Of a DNA stretch of 64,000 bases, positions 14,415 through 51,296 are shown one piece after another; position 1 is the stretch's first letter, and every line of letters begins with the position of its first letter. The notes beneath the pieces are model-generated. The model searched no databases and was not told the origin of the DNA. It saw only the letters and a list, made by a program, of their open reading frames with translations. Made by a program: the position numbers and the translations under genes. The DNA is from Psychrobacillus sp. NEAU-3TGS (lineage in GTDB: Bacteria; Bacillota; Bacilli; Bacillales_A; Planococcaceae), in assembly GCF_029955155.1 (NCBI RefSeq), contig NZ_JAPNOZ010000012.1, positions 1,123,753 through 1,187,752 of the forward strand. Direction: 5' to 3'.

Positions 14415-14540
14415 TTTGCTTCCGCTTCACTTTGTTCAGCTCCGCAGGAAAAACATTGCTTCCGCTTCACTTTGTTCAGCTCCGCAGGAAAAACATTGCT
14501 TCCGCTTCACTTTGTACAGCTCCGCAGGAAAAATATTGCT
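14415..14540. repeat. Three-copy 40-bp tandem repeat
   Basis: The sequence TCCGCTTCACTTTG begins at 14421, 14461 and 14501, a 40-base period. The first two copies are identical over the whole unit and the third differs at two positions (TTCAGC to TACAGC, and AACATTG to AATATTG). Each unit contains CTCCGCAGGAAAAA. It lies between yisL and yisK. Confidence 0.9.
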
Positions 14541-19800: not shown

Positions 19801-20553
19801 TCCGTTAGGCATATTTGCTAATGTTCGAATTTCTTCCGCTACGGCAATTGCTTCTTCTAAGTGATGAATGATTGCAAGTTTTAACGGTTCAATAAAAGAA
19901 AGTTCATCTATCGTTATATCTTCTGGTAATGTATATGCTTGTGGAATAGCCAGTAACCATTTCTTAGGTTCTGGGTGCACTCGTGCATATGTATATAGTT
20001 TTTCAATCATTGTCTCAATGGATTGATCGTCTCTATCTGATGTGAAACTGTCTGATAGTCTATACATCGCTTCTGGGTTTTCTACTTGATATGCTTCCTC
20101 TAACACTTCTGCTAAAATATCATCCCGGATAAGCGCAGCCTCTGCTTCATTCGCGATACGAAATCCAGGATCAATCGTTAGCATATACGAGTATTGTTTA
20201 ACAATATTTAAGCAAAAAGAATGCAGCGTTGAAATTTGAGCCTTACTTAACAGACTAAGCTGCTTGCGTAAATGGGTAGATGCTGGATCAAGTGCAATTG
20301 CTTTTTCAAGTGCTTCTCCCATCCGGTGGCGCATTTCTGCTGCAGAAGCATTGGTAAAAGTTACGACTAATAACTCATCGACGTTGATCGGATTCTCTTT
20401 GGCGATTACTTTTTGGATAAGCCGGTCAATGAGGACAGCCGTTTTACCAGAGCCTGCCGCAGCAGAAACGAGGACGTCTGAACCGGTTGCCCATATTGCT
20501 TTCCACTGGGCAGGTGTCCATGTTAACTCTGCTGGCATATCAGGAATGTTCAT
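16846..20553 (-). CDS. addA: ATP-dependent helicase/nuclease subunit A
   Basis: 1235 residues, the UvrD-type 3'-5' helicase plus RecB-family nuclease of the AddAB double-strand-break end-resection complex. Walker A is in AAAGSGKTAVL near residue 38; helicase motifs include DEYQDVN, GDVKQSIYRFR and TIHASKGLEFPVVF. The C-terminal nuclease motif is LLDYKTDRV near 1180. The ATG at 20553 has AAGGAGATG upstream and overlaps the end of addB by 14 bases. Chi recognition resides in AddB, so the two must act together. Confidence 0.95.
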   Translation of the reverse strand: MNIPDMPAELTWTPAQWKAIWATGSDVLVSAAAGSGKTAVLIDRLIQKVIAKENPINVDELLVVTFTNASAAEMRHRMGEALEKAIALDPASTHLRKQLSLLSKAQISTLHSFCLNIVKQYSYMLTIDPGFRIANEAEAALIRDDILAEVLEEAYQVENPEAMYRLSDSFTSDRDDQSIETMIEKLYTYARVHPEPKKWLLAIPQAYTLPEDITIDELSFIEPLKLAIIHHLEEAIAVAEEIRTLANMPNGPAPLAETALKDQEMIQEAIRLIKMSTWQDAFNYFSSLSWVKAASIKKDSCDEALKKQATAKRTKVKKIVNDLKDNYFTRTPARLLEEMRLMAPQLQTLVDLAITYGERYTAAKNDRGLVDFSDLEHYALDILTEHDEHGQLVPSEIAKEYQTRFKEVLTDEYQDVNLLQETILQLVKSGDEQTGNMFMVGDVKQSIYRFRLAEPMLFLGKYLAFSDLPKDSGVKIDLNANFRSRQEVLHATNYIFQQVMGEKVGEINYDDDASLKPQAPYNETIAPVELSLLYEVEDGSVESVEEDDMVIAEEELKKSQAEARYIISKIKELMDSGATVYDPWKKTSRPVEYSDIVILMRSMTWSQEVTDQFKEAGIPLYAELSKGYFEAIEVLIMLHTLRTIDNPYQDVSLASVLRAPFVGLTESELAAIHLAAPKESFYDALKEFVANGGAGISPETGEKLQRFLLQFEDWRDMSRRGSLADLIWRIYLDTHYYEMVGAMPSGMQKQANLRILHDRAVEYEKTSFRGLFRFLRFIERMRRRGDDLGAARAMSEKENVVRLMTIHASKGLEFPVVFLAGMGRPFNQMDFNEPYLFDQSFGLAVKAIDPEKRISFTSLPFLSMKEKKQMELKAEEMRVLYVAMTRAKEYLYLIASIKDLQKTLASWEDAQALLSDEMLPEYIRAKAKSYLDWIGPAIARHTDFQQLSNINEANIVESDSKWRIIAKCVDELKLSAEIEEQEKLSIDQLINKEKTTVLPQVRARFDTVYPYELSTQKRSKQSVSEMKKIEQLLAREEEAYFELAPTSNSLSKVAKRPFFLQQEAKLTGAEVGTAVHAFMQNVDLMEVKTTEQVKAFASELYDREILTKAEQAAINPQKIMPFFHSEIAERLRVAKRVMREFPFTYAMEDRDGDKQIIQGVVDCLFLEEDGRFVLLDYKTDRVQHLANNEALLQQEMNKRYAIQLSIYAQAIESILQVEIKEKILYLFDINKTVLL

Positions 20554-23500
20554 CCGTACTCATCTCCTTTCGAATTTTTTCAGTGACGATATCTGGTTGC
20601 TCTACTTTTAAATTTCGTACTGGCTGTGCAGGATCTTGAGGGTCAAATTGACAGACACTTCGATACGCACAATACGTACAAGGCATTTTATCTTTTATAC
20701 GATACGGATAAACACGAGTATCTCCTGCATTCATACCATTACCAGCTTGTTCATGTCTTTTACGTACAAACGACTGAAGAAGTTTCATCTGTTCAGGTTC
20801 TACTACTTTGGAGGACGATTTTGACAAGTTTCCGTCTTTGTTCATACGTACTGGAATAATCTTTGAAAATCCTTCGATTTGTTCATCCATTTCCATAATC
20901 ACTTCTGGGTCATCGAGTAGTAATCCATTCATCTTATACGATTTATAAATCTCTTCTTGTAACTCGGCGTCACTCATTTCCTTTTGCGTCTTAATAAAAG
21001 GATTATGCATATGCACATATAAAACACCTGCTGGCTCAGCGCTCTCCTGTAGCCAAATATCCGCATTTTCAATCGCAACGTCTAAATACGTTAACATTTG
21101 AAGCGATAAACCATAATACACTTCGTTCAAATCAATCCCTTTGCGTGACGATTTATAATCAACAATCCGAACATATAGATTGCCATTGACATTCGATGCA
21201 TCTACTCGGTCTATACGTCCACGCAACTGCATTTTGCGCCCACGCTTTAAAGGTATGTCTAGCGCAGGTAACGCTTCTCCTGGACCAAAGCCGGCTTCAA
21301 TAGCGATTGGCACGAAGGTCGAAGCTTTGGAATGCTTGCTCAGCGCAAAAAGCGTAGATGCTACAATTTGCTCTAGCTTACGCTGAATATAACGGTAACG
21401 ATTCGTACTTAGTAAAAGTTGATGGACAAATACTGGAACGATTTGATCCACCGCTTGTTTTGCAAGTCCTGCACATTGCTCTCTGGACAGCTGTGCCCAT
21501 GCTAGGCCCAGTCTTGCCGTTTCGTCTGCAATCCATTTTAGTGCAGCATGGAATAGATCCCCGATTGCCGGTGCCTCTAGTCGATATTCCGCTCGTTCCT
21601 CCAGCTTTAATCCATATGCTGCATAATGGGCAAAAGGACAGCTATAATAGCGTTCTACGCGAGAAACACTTGAAATCATCGTTTCACCGTATAATGCGGA
21701 TGTTATTTCCTGCGAGAGTCTTTCTGTTTTATTGCCATCTATTAAAGGTTTTACAACACGTTTTAAAATAGTGGACCAGTATGGATCTTCCAAATAATAT
21801 TGATAGACCGATTGCCAAACTTCTGGTAATTCTCCAGTTTCCAATGCTTTTCGAATTTGCATCACAACATATGGTAATGTTGTTCTTGGATGACTAATCG
21901 ATTGGAGATCAAAGGCATTATCTGGGTGATCAGTTGGATCTATTACAGCTAGCTCTATCGGGACATCTGTGATAAGTTGTTGGAGCTTTTTAATATACAT
22001 GGATGGCAGTAACGCTTTTCCTTCGCTATCTGCAATCGGATATGAAACAGCTAAATAATGAGAAGCTGTGACGAATGCTTTATAGACTAAATAGTTTTCA
22101 TCTAGCAAGCGCATTTTAGATGTTGGCGCTAACTCAAATCCTACTTGCGTAAACCATTCGCGCTCCGTATCCGACAGCAAGCCTTCATGATCCATTCGTT
22201 TTGGGAATACACCATCATTTACCCCAACGACAAACACAGCTTTTATATTCGTTAATCGAGCAATGTCCACATTTCCGACGATTACTTGATCAATTGCTGG
22301 GGGGATGCGTGAAAATGCTAATTGGTCATATCCTTCATCTAAAATTTTCGCAGCTTCCTCCACGGTCATCTCTTTCTCACCAAACATTAATACGAATTGA
22401 TCGAGTACATTCACCCACTCATTCCAAGCTTGTTCATGCTCAGAGGCAAGTAATAATTGACCATTTTCTTCTTCCGCTTTCTTCAAAACTTGGAGTTTCT
22501 CGTAAACTTGAAGCGACTCCATAAATGTAAATAATGCAGCAGCCATCTCCAGCCCTGTTTTACTTTGTGCAAGAGTATCTGCCAGCTTTTTTAAAGGTTG
22601 TACAACTATATCACGCGCTGCATGCAAATCTGCTTGCATGCTTAACTCCTCGTCAGTTTGCACCTTCGAGTAAAATTCTAACCCACGATACTTTTTATAC
22701 ACCCAACGTCGATCATCCAACCATCTATCCCCGTAAATACCAAATGACAGGACAAAATTTTCTAAACGGTCTGCCCGTTCTCGCCATTTACTTTTAGACG
22801 CTTCAAATGGGAAAAATAAGTCCGTTTTAATCGCTCGGAACATTGGTTCATACTTCCAACCAGTTCGAATAACTTCTAGTACCGTTCTGCTTAACTCGAT
22901 TAACGGATGATGTAGCATCGATTTTTTTTGACTAATAAATACCGGGATATCATATTGTGGAAAAATGGTTTCAATTAGCCCTTCATAGCTTTCCGAATCC
23001 CGATGCAAAATTGCCATTTCTTTATAGCGGACTTCTTTTTGTTGCATCATTTCTCTTATTTGTCTTGCTACCGCATGTATTTCCGCCCGTCTATTTGCAG
23101 CTTCTGTTATTCGTAATTTACCTTCCGTTTTCATCTCAGCGGGTGGTAGCTGATCAAAATTGGCTTCAATATGAGCAAGTTCCTTTGAAACAAACCGTTT
23201 TTGTTCCGCTTGATGTATGATTTCTTCTATTTCTACTCGTTCTGCTTGAGCTATTTCTATTAATCTAGCGCATGTATTTGCTGGTTGGTAAAATAACGAC
23301 TGCTCATCCTGGCTATCTGCAAGTGTTTCCATCGGAAGAGCGATCGTAATGCGCTTTACTTGTTTCATTAAAGCTTGAATAATTTCTAATTCTCTTGTTG
23401 TAAACGATGTAAATCCATCGATGTAGAGTTCTGTTTTCTCAAGCAGACTTGAGTCTTTTATTTTCTGGGCAAGCAAGGTTAAATACCCTTCCCCGTCAAT

Positions 23501-24034
23501 ATAGCTTGTCCCTAATTTTTGCTCCATTAAATCGAGCATGAGCATAAGATCAGCTGATTTATCAAGTAGTGTTTTAGGTGCTTGGATCGTTTCTAATTGA
23601 TTTAATGCGTTTGCCATCGTGGCATGGTCTAAACAATATCGGCTGAATTCTTTCATCAAGACTTCTATTTGATCGGTAAAACCTCGTTTGGTTGCGGCTC
23701 TATTAAATAATGTAAATTCATCTTTGTGATCTTCTAGTAAACTTCTGATAAGCATGCGATACCCAAATCCGCTTATTTCCTCTTTCGCTATTCCACCAGT
23801 TTCTTGTAATACACGCCAAGCTAACCGTTTAAATGTCGTCACCTGTGCACGTATTAACCCTTTGAGCCCTGCTCCAGCCGCAAGATCGTACTCACTAGAA
23901 AATGACATTTGGTCAGGCACTATATAAAACAACGGATCCCCAAATGGGTTTTGTTGTATAGCGTGTACTATTTCTTGCTGCATAAAAATGGTCTTCCCTG
24001 TTCCTGAACGCCCACTAATAATCCGTAATGACAT
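20540..24034 (-). CDS. addB: ATP-dependent helicase/nuclease subunit B
   Basis: 1164 residues. N-terminal Walker A GRSGTGKT near residue 8, inactive-helicase middle part that reads Chi, and C-terminal RecB-type nuclease with IVDYKSSRKGID near 1010. The four-cysteine iron-sulfur clasp is visible: one Cys in YYSCPFAHY near 780 and three in PCTYCAYRSVCQ near 1100. The ATG at 24034 has GAGAGGAG upstream; the frame is open for 43 more codons, but those translate an intergenic repeat element and are not part of the gene. First gene of addB-addA. Confidence 0.95.
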   Translation of the reverse strand: MSLRIISGRSGTGKTIFMQQEIVHAIQQNPFGDPLFYIVPDQMSFSSEYDLAAGAGLKGLIRAQVTTFKRLAWRVLQETGGIAKEEISGFGYRMLIRSLLEDHKDEFTLFNRAATKRGFTDQIEVLMKEFSRYCLDHATMANALNQLETIQAPKTLLDKSADLMLMLDLMEQKLGTSYIDGEGYLTLLAQKIKDSSLLEKTELYIDGFTSFTTRELEIIQALMKQVKRITIALPMETLADSQDEQSLFYQPANTCARLIEIAQAERVEIEEIIHQAEQKRFVSKELAHIEANFDQLPPAEMKTEGKLRITEAANRRAEIHAVARQIREMMQQKEVRYKEMAILHRDSESYEGLIETIFPQYDIPVFISQKKSMLHHPLIELSRTVLEVIRTGWKYEPMFRAIKTDLFFPFEASKSKWRERADRLENFVLSFGIYGDRWLDDRRWVYKKYRGLEFYSKVQTDEELSMQADLHAARDIVVQPLKKLADTLAQSKTGLEMAAALFTFMESLQVYEKLQVLKKAEEENGQLLLASEHEQAWNEWVNVLDQFVLMFGEKEMTVEEAAKILDEGYDQLAFSRIPPAIDQVIVGNVDIARLTNIKAVFVVGVNDGVFPKRMDHEGLLSDTEREWFTQVGFELAPTSKMRLLDENYLVYKAFVTASHYLAVSYPIADSEGKALLPSMYIKKLQQLITDVPIELAVIDPTDHPDNAFDLQSISHPRTTLPYVVMQIRKALETGELPEVWQSVYQYYLEDPYWSTILKRVVKPLIDGNKTERLSQEITSALYGETMISSVSRVERYYSCPFAHYAAYGLKLEERAEYRLEAPAIGDLFHAALKWIADETARLGLAWAQLSREQCAGLAKQAVDQIVPVFVHQLLLSTNRYRYIQRKLEQIVASTLFALSKHSKASTFVPIAIEAGFGPGEALPALDIPLKRGRKMQLRGRIDRVDASNVNGNLYVRIVDYKSSRKGIDLNEVYYGLSLQMLTYLDVAIENADIWLQESAEPAGVLYVHMHNPFIKTQKEMSDAELQEEIYKSYKMNGLLLDDPEVIMEMDEQIEGFSKIIPVRMNKDGNLSKSSSKVVEPEQMKLLQSFVRKRHEQAGNGMNAGDTRVYPYRIKDKMPCTYCAYRSVCQFDPQDPAQPVRNLKVEQPDIVTEKIRKEMSTDEHS

Positions 24035-24052
24035 ATTTAAACTCCTCTCTTG

Positions 24053-24267
24053 AAAAGCGTAAGCGCCTATTTCTGCCCAGACAGGCAAATGTGGATGGGG
24101 TAGGTCTGCAAAGTGCACCACATCCTGTGGCAAAGCAGACATAACCCGCATCGTGCGGGCCAAGGAGGCAGTTTTTCAGCCACCACAAGCGATTTTGTTT
24201 GCGACGAGCTTGCGCAGGAGCAGCTTTTTCACATTTGACCCGATGGGCAAGGCGCTGAAGCTAGACA
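24053..24267 (-). repeat. GTCTAG...GCTTTTC intergenic element, copy upstream of addB
   Basis: Read on the minus strand it begins TGTCTAGCTTCAGCGCC, passes GGTCAAATGTG, the module TGCTCCTGCGC...CTCGTCGCA, GGTGGCTGAAAAACTGCC, and ends GGCGCTTACGCTTTTC. Same order of blocks as copies at 55686 and 60915, with an extra insertion near its end. It separates sipV from addB and ends 19 bases before the addB start. Confidence 0.8.
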
Positions 24268-25619: not shown

Positions 25620-26345
25620 TTGTTGAATAAGAATTCATTTGTGCTTGGATTAAAAGCAGGATTAAGTATTGCAATCGGATACTTCCCAGTCGCTCTAACA
25701 TTTGGCTTACTGGCCAAAACATCTGGACTTTCTATTTGGGAAGCTACTGCAATGAGTATCTTCGTTTATGCCGGAGCATCACAATATATGTCCTTAACGC
25801 TAATTTCAAAAGGGGTTGACCCTATTTTAATCGTTTTAAATACATTTGTCCTAAATATACGTCACTTCTTAATGACGGCGGCGCTAAACGAAAAGATGCA
25901 GAGCGAAAAGAGATGGATTAAAGGGATTTATGCTTTTGGCATTACAGATGAATCTTTTTCTGTACTCGCAACAAGAAAAGAGGAAAAAATCGGCACTTCC
26001 TTTGCATTTGGTGTGGCTTTGATTGCATATAGCAGCTGGGTTGTTTTCACAGCTGTTGGACATGTTATTGGAGCCAATCTTCCACAGTTTTTACAAGCCG
26101 CAATGTCGATTGCATTATACGCGATGTTTGTCGGATTACTTGTACCATCCATGCGAGGCAATCGTAAAGTAGTGATGCTCGCACTGATTGCAGCTGTTAT
26201 TAATGGATTTTTTTATTGGACCGGAATTCTATCGACTGGATGGTCAATCTTGGTTGCAACATTAGCATCCTCTATTTTTGTGGAAATTATTTATGTCAGA
26301 CACGAAAATCGAAAGCGTATTTCCGAGAAGTTGAAAGGAGTTTAA
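25620..26345 (+). CDS. azlC: Branched-chain amino acid exporter, large subunit
   Basis: 241 residues, AzlC family with about seven helices. Signatures are GYFPVALTFGLLA near residue 20 and FVYAGASQYMSL near 50. Together with AzlD it exports branched-chain amino acids or related analogues. Two consecutive TTG codons (25620 and 25623) follow AGGTGG; either may be the start. A TATAAT lies at 25583-25588, but its -35 is poor (TTCATA). Functionally it complements the ilv-leu operon 25 kb away. Confidence 0.9.
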   Translation: MLNKNSFVLGLKAGLSIAIGYFPVALTFGLLAKTSGLSIWEATAMSIFVYAGASQYMSLTLISKGVDPILIVLNTFVLNIRHFLMTAALNEKMQSEKRWIKGIYAFGITDESFSVLATRKEEKIGTSFAFGVALIAYSSWVVFTAVGHVIGANLPQFLQAAMSIALYAMFVGLLVPSMRGNRKVVMLALIAAVINGFFYWTGILSTGWSILVATLASSIFVEIIYVRHENRKRISEKLKGV

Positions 26346-26349
26346 ATAA

Positions 26350-26658
26350 ATGGGAGCATGGTATTGGTGGACATTGATCGGCATGGCAATTGTGACATAT
26401 ATTCCAAGGGCTGTCCCTCTGACTTTTTTAGAAGGAAAAGAGTTGCCCCCAGTTGTTTCTGGTGTCTTGCGTAATATTCCTTACGCTGTTTTAGGTGCAT
26501 TAATATTCCCTGCTATTTTGTATGTTCAAGAAGGGAATCTTTTATTTGGGCTCATTGGGACGATTGTTGCCTTTACTTTAGCCATTCTTTTTTCTAATTT
26601 GATGGTCATAGTTTTAGGTACGATTGGAGTTTTAGCTATTTATAGTTTGTTATTTTGA
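26350..26658 (+). CDS. azlD: Branched-chain amino acid exporter, small subunit
   Basis: 102 residues, AzlD family, four helices, with the conserved TYIPRAVPLTFL near residue 16. It is the obligate partner of AzlC. GAAAGGAG lies within the last codons of azlC, 9 bases before the ATG at 26350, so the pair is coupled. No lrp-type azlB regulator is adjacent. The gene ends shortly before a 21-bp repeat array. Confidence 0.9.
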   Translation: MGAWYWWTLIGMAIVTYIPRAVPLTFLEGKELPPVVSGVLRNIPYAVLGALIFPAILYVQEGNLLFGLIGTIVAFTLAILFSNLMVIVLGTIGVLAIYSLLF

Positions 26659-26686
26659 TTACATAATGATTGGGTTTAGTGTGAGG

Positions 26687-26787
26687 ATCTTGCGATTTGG
26701 AGGTCCTTTCTTGCGATTCTGGGGTTCTATCTTGCGATTCTAGGTATCTATCTTGCGATTCCGGCACTCTATCTTGCGATTTTACCC
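26687..26787 (+). repeat. Array of five 21-bp units with ATCTTGCGATT core
   Basis: Units begin at 26687, 26708, 26729, 26750 and 26771, exactly 21 bases apart. The first 11 bases are ATCTTGCGATT in four units and TTCTTGCGATT in one; the remaining 10 vary. Because 21 is divisible by three, the reverse strand encodes a spurious SQDR-type heptad repeat. Located between convergent azlD and csbA. Confidence 0.88.
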
Positions 26788-26811: not shown

Positions 26812-26844
26812 AAAAAATCCGCCTCACTCAGAAGCGGATTTTTT
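26812..26844. terminator. Terminator of csbA
   Basis: Perfect 11-base stem AAAAAATCCGC / GCGGATTTTTT with an 11-base loop. The csbA stop codon lies in the loop. T-runs occur on both strands. Confidence 0.88.
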
Positions 26845-27078
26845 CTTTGTATTTTTACTTTTAGTAGCATACCAGAATCCTACGGTTAGTGATGCTGCGT
26901 CTAATATATAAATCCACCATCTGTGTGTGTAGCCCGCTTGTACCGATGCAGCGAATAATGCGACTGTCAGTATGAGCGCTACATAAGGATTAAATGTTAT
27001 ACGGGTAAAAAGAACGACGAGTAATGCAGGTGCAAAAATGGCTAGAATTATTTGTGTTGATAAAGATAATGTTTCCAT
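26824..27078 (-). CDS. csbA: CsbA family membrane protein
   Basis: 84 residues with three helices and a Lys-rich cytoplasmic end. APALLVVLFTRITFNPYVAL closely follows the B. subtilis CsbA N-terminus, as do GYTHRWW and ASLTVGFWYA. In B. subtilis csbA is a sigma-B-controlled gene of unknown function next to minJ. The ATG has GTAGGAG upstream. It follows minJ after 8 bases, so it can be co-transcribed with it. No sigma-B promoter could be recognised in that short gap. Confidence 0.85.
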   Translation of the reverse strand: METLSLSTQIILAIFAPALLVVLFTRITFNPYVALILTVALFAASVQAGYTHRWWIYILDAASLTVGFWYATKSKNTKKKSASE

Positions 27079-45545: not shown

Positions 45546-45649
45546 TATCTAGATAAGATAGGCTATAAATATCGTGAATATCCACTAAATTATACATAAT
45601 TGCTTGAAGAAATCAGTGTTTCACAACAAGGGAACTCTGTTCTCTTAGA

Positions 45650-45754
45650 AATGGTTGCTTTTGTTGATCAATTGATTGCTTAAAGTATAGAATTGGTTGC
45701 TTACATTGAGGATTTGATTGGTCAAATCCATTTATTGGGTAAATCTCTACATTG
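45650..45754 (+). repeat. Array of five 21-bp units with ATTGRTTGCTT core
   Basis: Units begin at 45650 (AATGGTTGCTT), 45671 (ATTGATTGCTT), 45692 (ATTGGTTGCTT), 45713 (TTTGATTGGTC) and 45734 (ATTGGGTAAAT), exactly 21 bases apart, decaying to the right. Same core as the array at 8983. Located in the secA-hpf gap. Confidence 0.7.
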
Positions 45755-51254: not shown

Positions 51255-51296
51255 ATCTTGCGATTAGAAGAGTGTATCTTGTGATTTCCACAACCT
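51255..51296 (+). repeat. Two 21-bp units with ATCTTGYGATT core
   Basis: ATCTTGCGATT at 51255 and ATCTTGTGATT at 51276, exactly 21 bases apart with unrelated second halves. Same core as the five-unit array at 26687. Confidence 0.7.

Follow-up and report, generated by a model that had tools for sequence, protein, structure and literature searches.

What kind of element is the array of five 21-bp units that lies behind azlCD in this Psychrobacillus genome (4.42 Mb, 16 contigs)? The original prediction described a conserved core joined to a free spacer, under selection or targeted gene conversion and possibly bound by an oligomerising protein. Here we follow this array through its own window (the whole 64-kb stretch of DNA analysed), its genome, its genus and wider taxa.

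The array behind azlCD

The five units start at positions 26687, 26708, 26729, 26750 and 26771 of the window, an exact 21-bp, two-turn pitch, and the perfect 21-base register that had been claimed for them thus stands. The 11-base core attributed to all five, ATCTTGCGATT, does not: it is exact in four, and the core common to all five is the 10-base TCTTGCGATT, because unit 2 starts with TTCTTGCGATT. The array end given earlier, 26787, lies 6 bases beyond the last core. Over the ten unit pairs, the core matches at 106/110 positions and the 10-base spacer at 43/100, consistent with the predicted layout of conserved core and free spacer, and unlike an ordinary tandem duplication, in which the whole unit would be similar. 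With at most one mismatch, TCTTGCGATT was found 17 times in the window; the mean in shuffled sequence was 6.96, and none of 100 shuffles reached 17. Six of the copies in the window are exact, five in the azl array and one in a two-unit copy of the same family (Table 1).

The array begins 28 bp behind the azlD stop codon. The four nearest genes encode AzlC, AzlD, a DUF2198 protein and a PDZ protein, with no initiator or transposase gene among them. The inverted repeat that follows the array has a T-run and, from its sequence, is probably a terminator common to both convergent genes; a terminator scan that allowed loops of at most 8 does not list it, because its loop has 11 nt. One reverse reading frame is open throughout the array. 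The other five carry stops, and the coding of a heptapeptide repeat was rejected on these grounds; joints of 19, 20 and 29 bp would also break the reading frame of a repeat peptide.

Two other features were observed in the window. Positions 24093-24159 (+) match the Rfam Bacillaceae-1 RNA (54.4 bits, gathering threshold 35), overlapping the 5' end of a long opposite-strand ORF (20540-24163), and positions 14416-14540 hold three almost identical 40-bp tandem units, TTGCTTCCGCTTCACTTTGTTCAGCTCCGCAGGAAAAACA.

Table 1. Features around the azl array, same-pitch copies in the window, and facing arrays elsewhere in the genome (window positions unless a contig is given).
Feature	Position	Strand	Evidence or remark
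azlC, upstream of azlD	25620..26345	+	Pfam AzlC E=9.5e-42
azlD	26350..26658	+	Pfam AzlD E=5.4e-20
Head flank, azlD to array	26659..26686	+	partly absent at relatives' empty sites (DNA behind 19 azlD loci)
Five-unit 21-bp array	26687..26781	+	core A or T followed by TCTTGCGATT; independent Tandem Repeats Finder detection
Inverted repeat AAAAAATCCGC / GCGGATTTTTT, 11-base loop	26812..26844	.	sequence; terminator-like
DUF2198 gene, convergent, downstream of azl array	26824..27078	-	
AGCAACCAA-family element, left part	45649..45738	-	end CCAATAAATGG at 45728-45738, then 21-bp units
Second copy of the azl family, two units	51255..51286	+	G000:C4:1175007
Facing AGCAACCAA/CGCAACGTT arrays	G000:C2:184249-184452, C3:515797-515957, C4:480676-480857, C4:536829-536947		
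Facing AGCAACCAA/CGCAACGTT arrays, continued	G000:C4:633801-634025, C4:1011072-1011263, C13:243607-243759		

A dispersed family of arrays

In the genome as a whole, 52 core pairs show the 21-bp distance (up to three mismatches), as against none with a reversed-pattern control. All 34 exact copies of ATCTTGCGATT lie inside arrays, at ten array places, which rules out that the core is scattered over the genome at random spacing. A search with the 8-base core TTGCGATT and up to two mismatches gave 77 pairs against 5 in the control, many of the two-mismatch pairs being scattered singles. Altogether the genome has eleven array places, one of which (C13:239665) is decayed, and six of them fall within C4 1.08-1.25 Mb.

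The array is not confined to one strain either, as had been allowed for: of the 261 family genomes searched, 26 have exact pairs of the 8-mer at 21 bp, including 15 of the 19 in the genus (G003 with a single pair). The remainder are ten genomes with one pair each and G259, from another genus, with 59 exact pairs, or 257 when one mismatch is allowed; these form long arrays that show a higher order of 102 bp. Among GTDB contigs, 28 stretches carried the core, 17 of them from Psychrobacillus or FJAT-22090. Of the eleven others, one from Anaerobacillus (L058) has three TTGCGATT units with unlike spacers at steps of 20 and 21 bp, three (L041, L052 and L054) have 5, 4 and 3 units, similar over their full length, and the remaining seven have two regular units. 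The plasmid sequences searched for the array gave no match. Three viral contigs have three units; L307 and L309 (IMG/VR) carry three near-identical 21-bp units, TTGCGATTTGGGG, whose wording resembles the azl array.

The consensus unit, derived from 50 arrays with 289 units, is A-T/A-C/T-TTGCGATT followed by a 10-nt spacer, with a spacer G+C content of 56% against 38% in five loci with their surroundings. Out of 291 distinct core-to-core steps, 243 measure 21 bp, so that these are direct repeats of the size (about 17-22 bp) and with the conserved core of replication iterons, although at the azl array the adjacent initiator gene is not among the four nearest genes. Other steps are of 20 bp (three), 22 bp (one) and 42 bp (eight), with 30 of 18, 19, 28 and 29 bp together; by eye, those of 18, 19 and 29 bp are mostly joints of duplicated blocks of about 102 or 113 bp. 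Spacer sequences recur within such blocks and look unrelated between loci, and outside the units no homology was noticed between TTGCGATT loci.

In 25 arrays (those longer than 260 nt with flanks left out) we found no RNA fold beyond that of shuffles, with mean z of -0.18 and +0.09 on the two strands, and neither the palindrome nor the stable single-strand fold of hairpin repeats such as REP and BOX. Inverted ends were also absent from the 41 arrays searched: the head compared with the reversed tail scored 13.2 within the same array, 14.0 between arrays and 13.7 in the outer flanks, that is, no better than flanks. MITE status was rejected for TTGCGATT arrays, which lack the terminal inverted repeats of that class. 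In 40 arrays, AGTG points inward more than outward (heads 12 vs 3, tails 18 vs 4), too weak a bias to call. The genes beside the arrays take all orientations; in a count with unbiased context, convergent genes flank 7 of the 22 arrays, compared with 144 of 893 intergenic gaps, an apparent small excess. By eye, many arrays start close behind the T-run of a terminator upstream, which is not the case for the azl array.

Turnover between species

Behind azlCD, the array is present in three of the 19 genus genomes: our own, P. lasiicapitis and P. soli. The site without array is clean in G008, G015 and G011, and several genus genomes have a different sequence behind azlCD. In G012 (L080), AzlD is 98% identical, no array lies behind azlD, and a different, GC-rich sequence is found instead.

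We compared the eleven loci of our genome with eleven stretches of P. lasiicapitis (G006). Ten match a locus there that carries an array in the corresponding place, and the eleventh (L143) had no match among these stretches; the main flank alignments are 88-96% identical. Unit numbers differ at eight of the ten orthologous loci (4 and 6, 6 and 12, 5 and 6, and 6 and 3 units, for example) and are equal at two. At one locus (L023, G000:C4:1175007, against L134, G006:C12:65147) the two arrays occupy the same place, share a spacer and point in opposite directions with respect to their flanks, as after an inversion in place.

Between orthologous arrays, 10 of 184 positions differ in the 8-base core, 3 of 69 in the three bases before it and 22 of 238 in the spacer. 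The core thus changes at about half the spacer rate (Fisher p = 0.19), over ungapped stretches of four of the ten orthologous arrays, two of them covered only partly, the other six requiring gaps; in two of the four, core changes outnumber spacer changes. This weakens the selection on the core that was originally deduced, the core showing about half the spacer rate and not near-invariance. On the time scale of sister species, the core evolves at most mildly slower than the spacer. When units in general are compared, spacer differences have reached saturation, whereas those of the core plateau near 1.7 of 11, a value bounded by the detection rule (at most two mismatches), and cores of unit pairs with identical spacers still differ by a mean of 0.41 of 11 bases. 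Weak selection would fit these observations, as would a long-term process in which poor cores are lost and good ones renewed; strict selection on the core is an unproven candidate reading.

Other cores at the same pitch

Psychrobacillus genomes with few or no TTGCGATT pairs have period-21 arrays with other cores. We ran a core-blind scan for periods 12-60, requiring 4 copies with 8 conserved columns and a whole-unit identity no higher than 0.80, on 2.0 Mb taken from nine related genomes. In this sample, three of the 20 own-genome stretches (L270, L281 and L285) cover known arrays and the G013 and G003 stretches were chosen around azlD; the G259 stretches, chosen around arrays, were excluded. 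Matches numbered 44 at period 21, 5 at period 20, 4 at period 42 and 10 at all others. Three order-3 Markov replicates of the scanned DNA gave none at any period, and neither did 200 kb of E. coli; G281 (120 kb) and G036 (80 kb) had no 4-copy match at period 21. One array gives several matches; when a 3-copy scan is included and these two genomes are set aside, they amount to 30 arrays in 1.8 Mb, six of which lie inside ORFs of 98-168 aa that may be spurious.

The other cores include CGCAACACTT, GATTGTMGTAAA, AACCTTGCRG, CGGTCATAAA (20 bp), CCGATTAT, TTCTAATA and AAACCGCTCAAC. A further one, CCGATAAA, occurs as a pair in 11 of 398 genomes of the class; on inspection, two more genera of the family and G533, from another family, proved to have multi-unit arrays, and four genomes outside the family a single pair. 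The general feature is therefore the pitch rather than the TTGCGATT core, a point that the original prediction missed. Separately, L195 and L197 (G269) and L213 and L218 (G259) contain arrays of 52-bp period with palindromic halves, such as AAAAGGTC...GACCTTTT, which are another repeat class of the sister genus.

A mobile-looking element with 21-bp units

Two more cores were followed through our genome at up to three mismatches: pairs at 21 bp number 205 for AGCAACCAA, against 8 in the control, and 44 for CGCAACGTT, against 2. Many AGCAACCAA arrays sit in short elements that start with CCAATAAATGG and end with CCATTTATTGG. Both ends (up to two mismatches), 239-308 bp apart, were present in five of nine copies examined, which were chosen from 12 loci (L310-L321) after two CGCAACGTT-armed and one overlapping locus were removed. 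Both arms contain 21-bp units; those of the right arm have a different core and, by eye, a spacing of about 21 bp. At least 47 pieces of our genome match the element, a lower bound from 40 of 92 candidates scored, in which one element may give several pieces. Matches extend to eight of the 19 genus genomes (E up to 1e-6), numbering 43, 45 and 48 in three, 17 and 9 in one each, and 1 or 2 in three. Compared with a reference copy, 17 copies are identical at 0.88 of core columns and 0.80 of spacer columns.

With terminal inverted repeats and dispersal in many copies, the AGCAACCAA family has two hallmarks of a MITE. No autonomous partner of the element was seen, and the fragment in the window (Table 1) showed no right end. 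At seven of the nine CGCAACGTT places (up to two mismatches), a AGCAACCAA array lies on the other strand no more than about 100 bp away, facing the CGCAACGTT array; we inspected five of the seven facing pairs and both unpaired places directly, and at the facing sites the CGCAACGTT array apparently stands in place of the right arm of the inverted-end element. The AGCAACCAA element is the best mechanistic clue obtained here, in that at least one family of 21-bp pitch is part of a mobile-looking element.

What the arrays may be

We propose that the azl array belongs to a dispersed and apparently non-coding family of iteron arrays, helically phased at 21 bp. Every unit would be one site for a putative DNA-binding protein; at a two-turn pitch such sites would therefore fall on the same side of the helix, and this phasing may be the reason for the pitch. 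The family would behave as an extragenic element with fast turnover, of probably parasitic or mobile origin, and not as an operator of azlCD. Its arrays would arise at tolerated intergenic places, where they may be absent or inverted, and would gain and lose 21-bp units as well as blocks of about 102 or 113 bp. This reading, of a multi-site array acting at the DNA level and bound by a putative protein, is the one we favour, with belief and doubt about evenly balanced. The pitch, the dispersal, the changes in unit number, the empty sites, the lack of a fold and the other families of the same pitch are all observed. Against it stand the weak conservation of the core between orthologues, the arrays with a 20-bp pitch, the 18-, 19- and 29-bp joints, which break helical phase, and the two of nine sampled genomes (G281 and G036, 200 kb together) in which no 4-copy match at period 21 was found.

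In a different account, the arrays are the modules at which a transposase binds the ends of small non-autonomous transposons, and solitary arrays, among them that at azlCD, are one-armed remnants or derivatives. The AGCAACCAA elements, with paired ends, units in both arms, numerous pieces and matches across the genus, argue for it, as do the AGCAACCAA arrays facing CGCAACGTT and the clean empty sites at azlCD. For AGCAACCAA the account is well supported, which cannot be said for TTGCGATT, whose arrays have no inverted ends and whose spacers appear unrelated between loci, unlike copies of one transposon; together with the lack of a visible autonomous partner, this makes us doubtful of it as a general explanation, while keeping it as the foremost rival. 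Because TTGCGATT arrays have no inverted ends, the case for their mobility rests on presence and absence and on analogy. An unlikely alternative, though one in keeping with the gain and loss of units and blocks and conceivable for the azl locus taken by itself, is a neutral minisatellite evolving by tandem duplication and point mutation, its core being slowest by chance or through short-tract conversion. The roughly halved rate of the core between sister species, and the core differences between units with identical spacers, are also consistent with a minisatellite; yet spacers are saturated across units while cores level off (in part an effect of the detection rule), steps of 20 and 22 bp total only 4 of 291, and different cores share the pitch in several genera, which neutral duplication does not account for.

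That the azl array acts as RNA, as an element 3' of azlCD bound by a protein or a small RNA, is suggested by its place on the azlD strand, close behind azlD and ahead of the terminator-like inverted repeat. We consider this very improbable, since the 25 arrays have no fold beyond shuffles, other arrays lie beside genes in either orientation, and one is inverted relative to its flanks between species. A degenerate CRISPR-like array has in its favour only the layout of repeat and variable spacer, and its probability is close to nil: CRISPR repeats measure about 23-50 bp and their spacers about 25-60 bp, whereas here the core has 8-11 bp and the spacer 10 bp, and spacers recur in duplicated blocks. 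The original prediction had likewise set CRISPR aside on grounds of size.

Returning to the favoured reading of a phased, fast-turnover array, a broader and more tentative proposal, which we hold to be somewhat less probable than its opposite, is that these arrays form an extragenic class of Planococcaceae-type genera and at least one other family of Bacilli, in which the 21-bp pitch is kept and the core is replaced from lineage to lineage and even between loci. This would imply either a machinery for which two-turn repetition matters more than a single fixed sequence, or binders that co-evolve with the core as in satellite drive. If the pitch is indeed conserved and the core free, the arrays would be a natural experiment in the co-evolution of bacterial repetitive DNA and its binding proteins, with numerous arrays in each genome, sister species in which they are shared, and empty sites that serve as controls. 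They would also be fast strain-typing markers and a lead towards an undescribed group of DNA-binding or transposition proteins.

Comparison with known repeat systems

Plasmid replication iterons and the multi-site ends of Tn7 or IS21 are built from direct repeats, about 20-22 bp long, that have a conserved core, and the azl family resembles them in both respects. It differs in having about eleven loci in one genome and, at azl, four nearest genes that include neither an initiator nor a transposase gene, and 21-bp arrays in other lineages have other cores. Like bacterial MITEs and extragenic repeats (REP, BOX, bcr1), the arrays are short, dispersed and intergenic, and the ends of the AGCAACCAA element are inverted as in a MITE; unlike them, TTGCGATT arrays have neither inverted ends nor a hairpin. 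VNTR minisatellites are made of tandem units that vary in copy number, as these arrays do between species, but here half of each unit is conserved and one pitch is common to different cores.

Among open-licence PMC papers, we found no description of such 21-bp arrays. The nearest described repeat that we found is the TAACTGA heptamer of Beggiatoaceae, which forms many intergenic sets of direct repeats per genome with no particular RNA structure predicted, mostly immediately upstream of start codons and with one sequence in all taxa (PMC4679880). The 21-bp arrays share with it the short direct repeats, the many intergenic sets and the lack of RNA structure. They differ from its uniform sequence, its layout and its context, being built with a 10-nt variable spacer, at a fixed pitch and from many cores.
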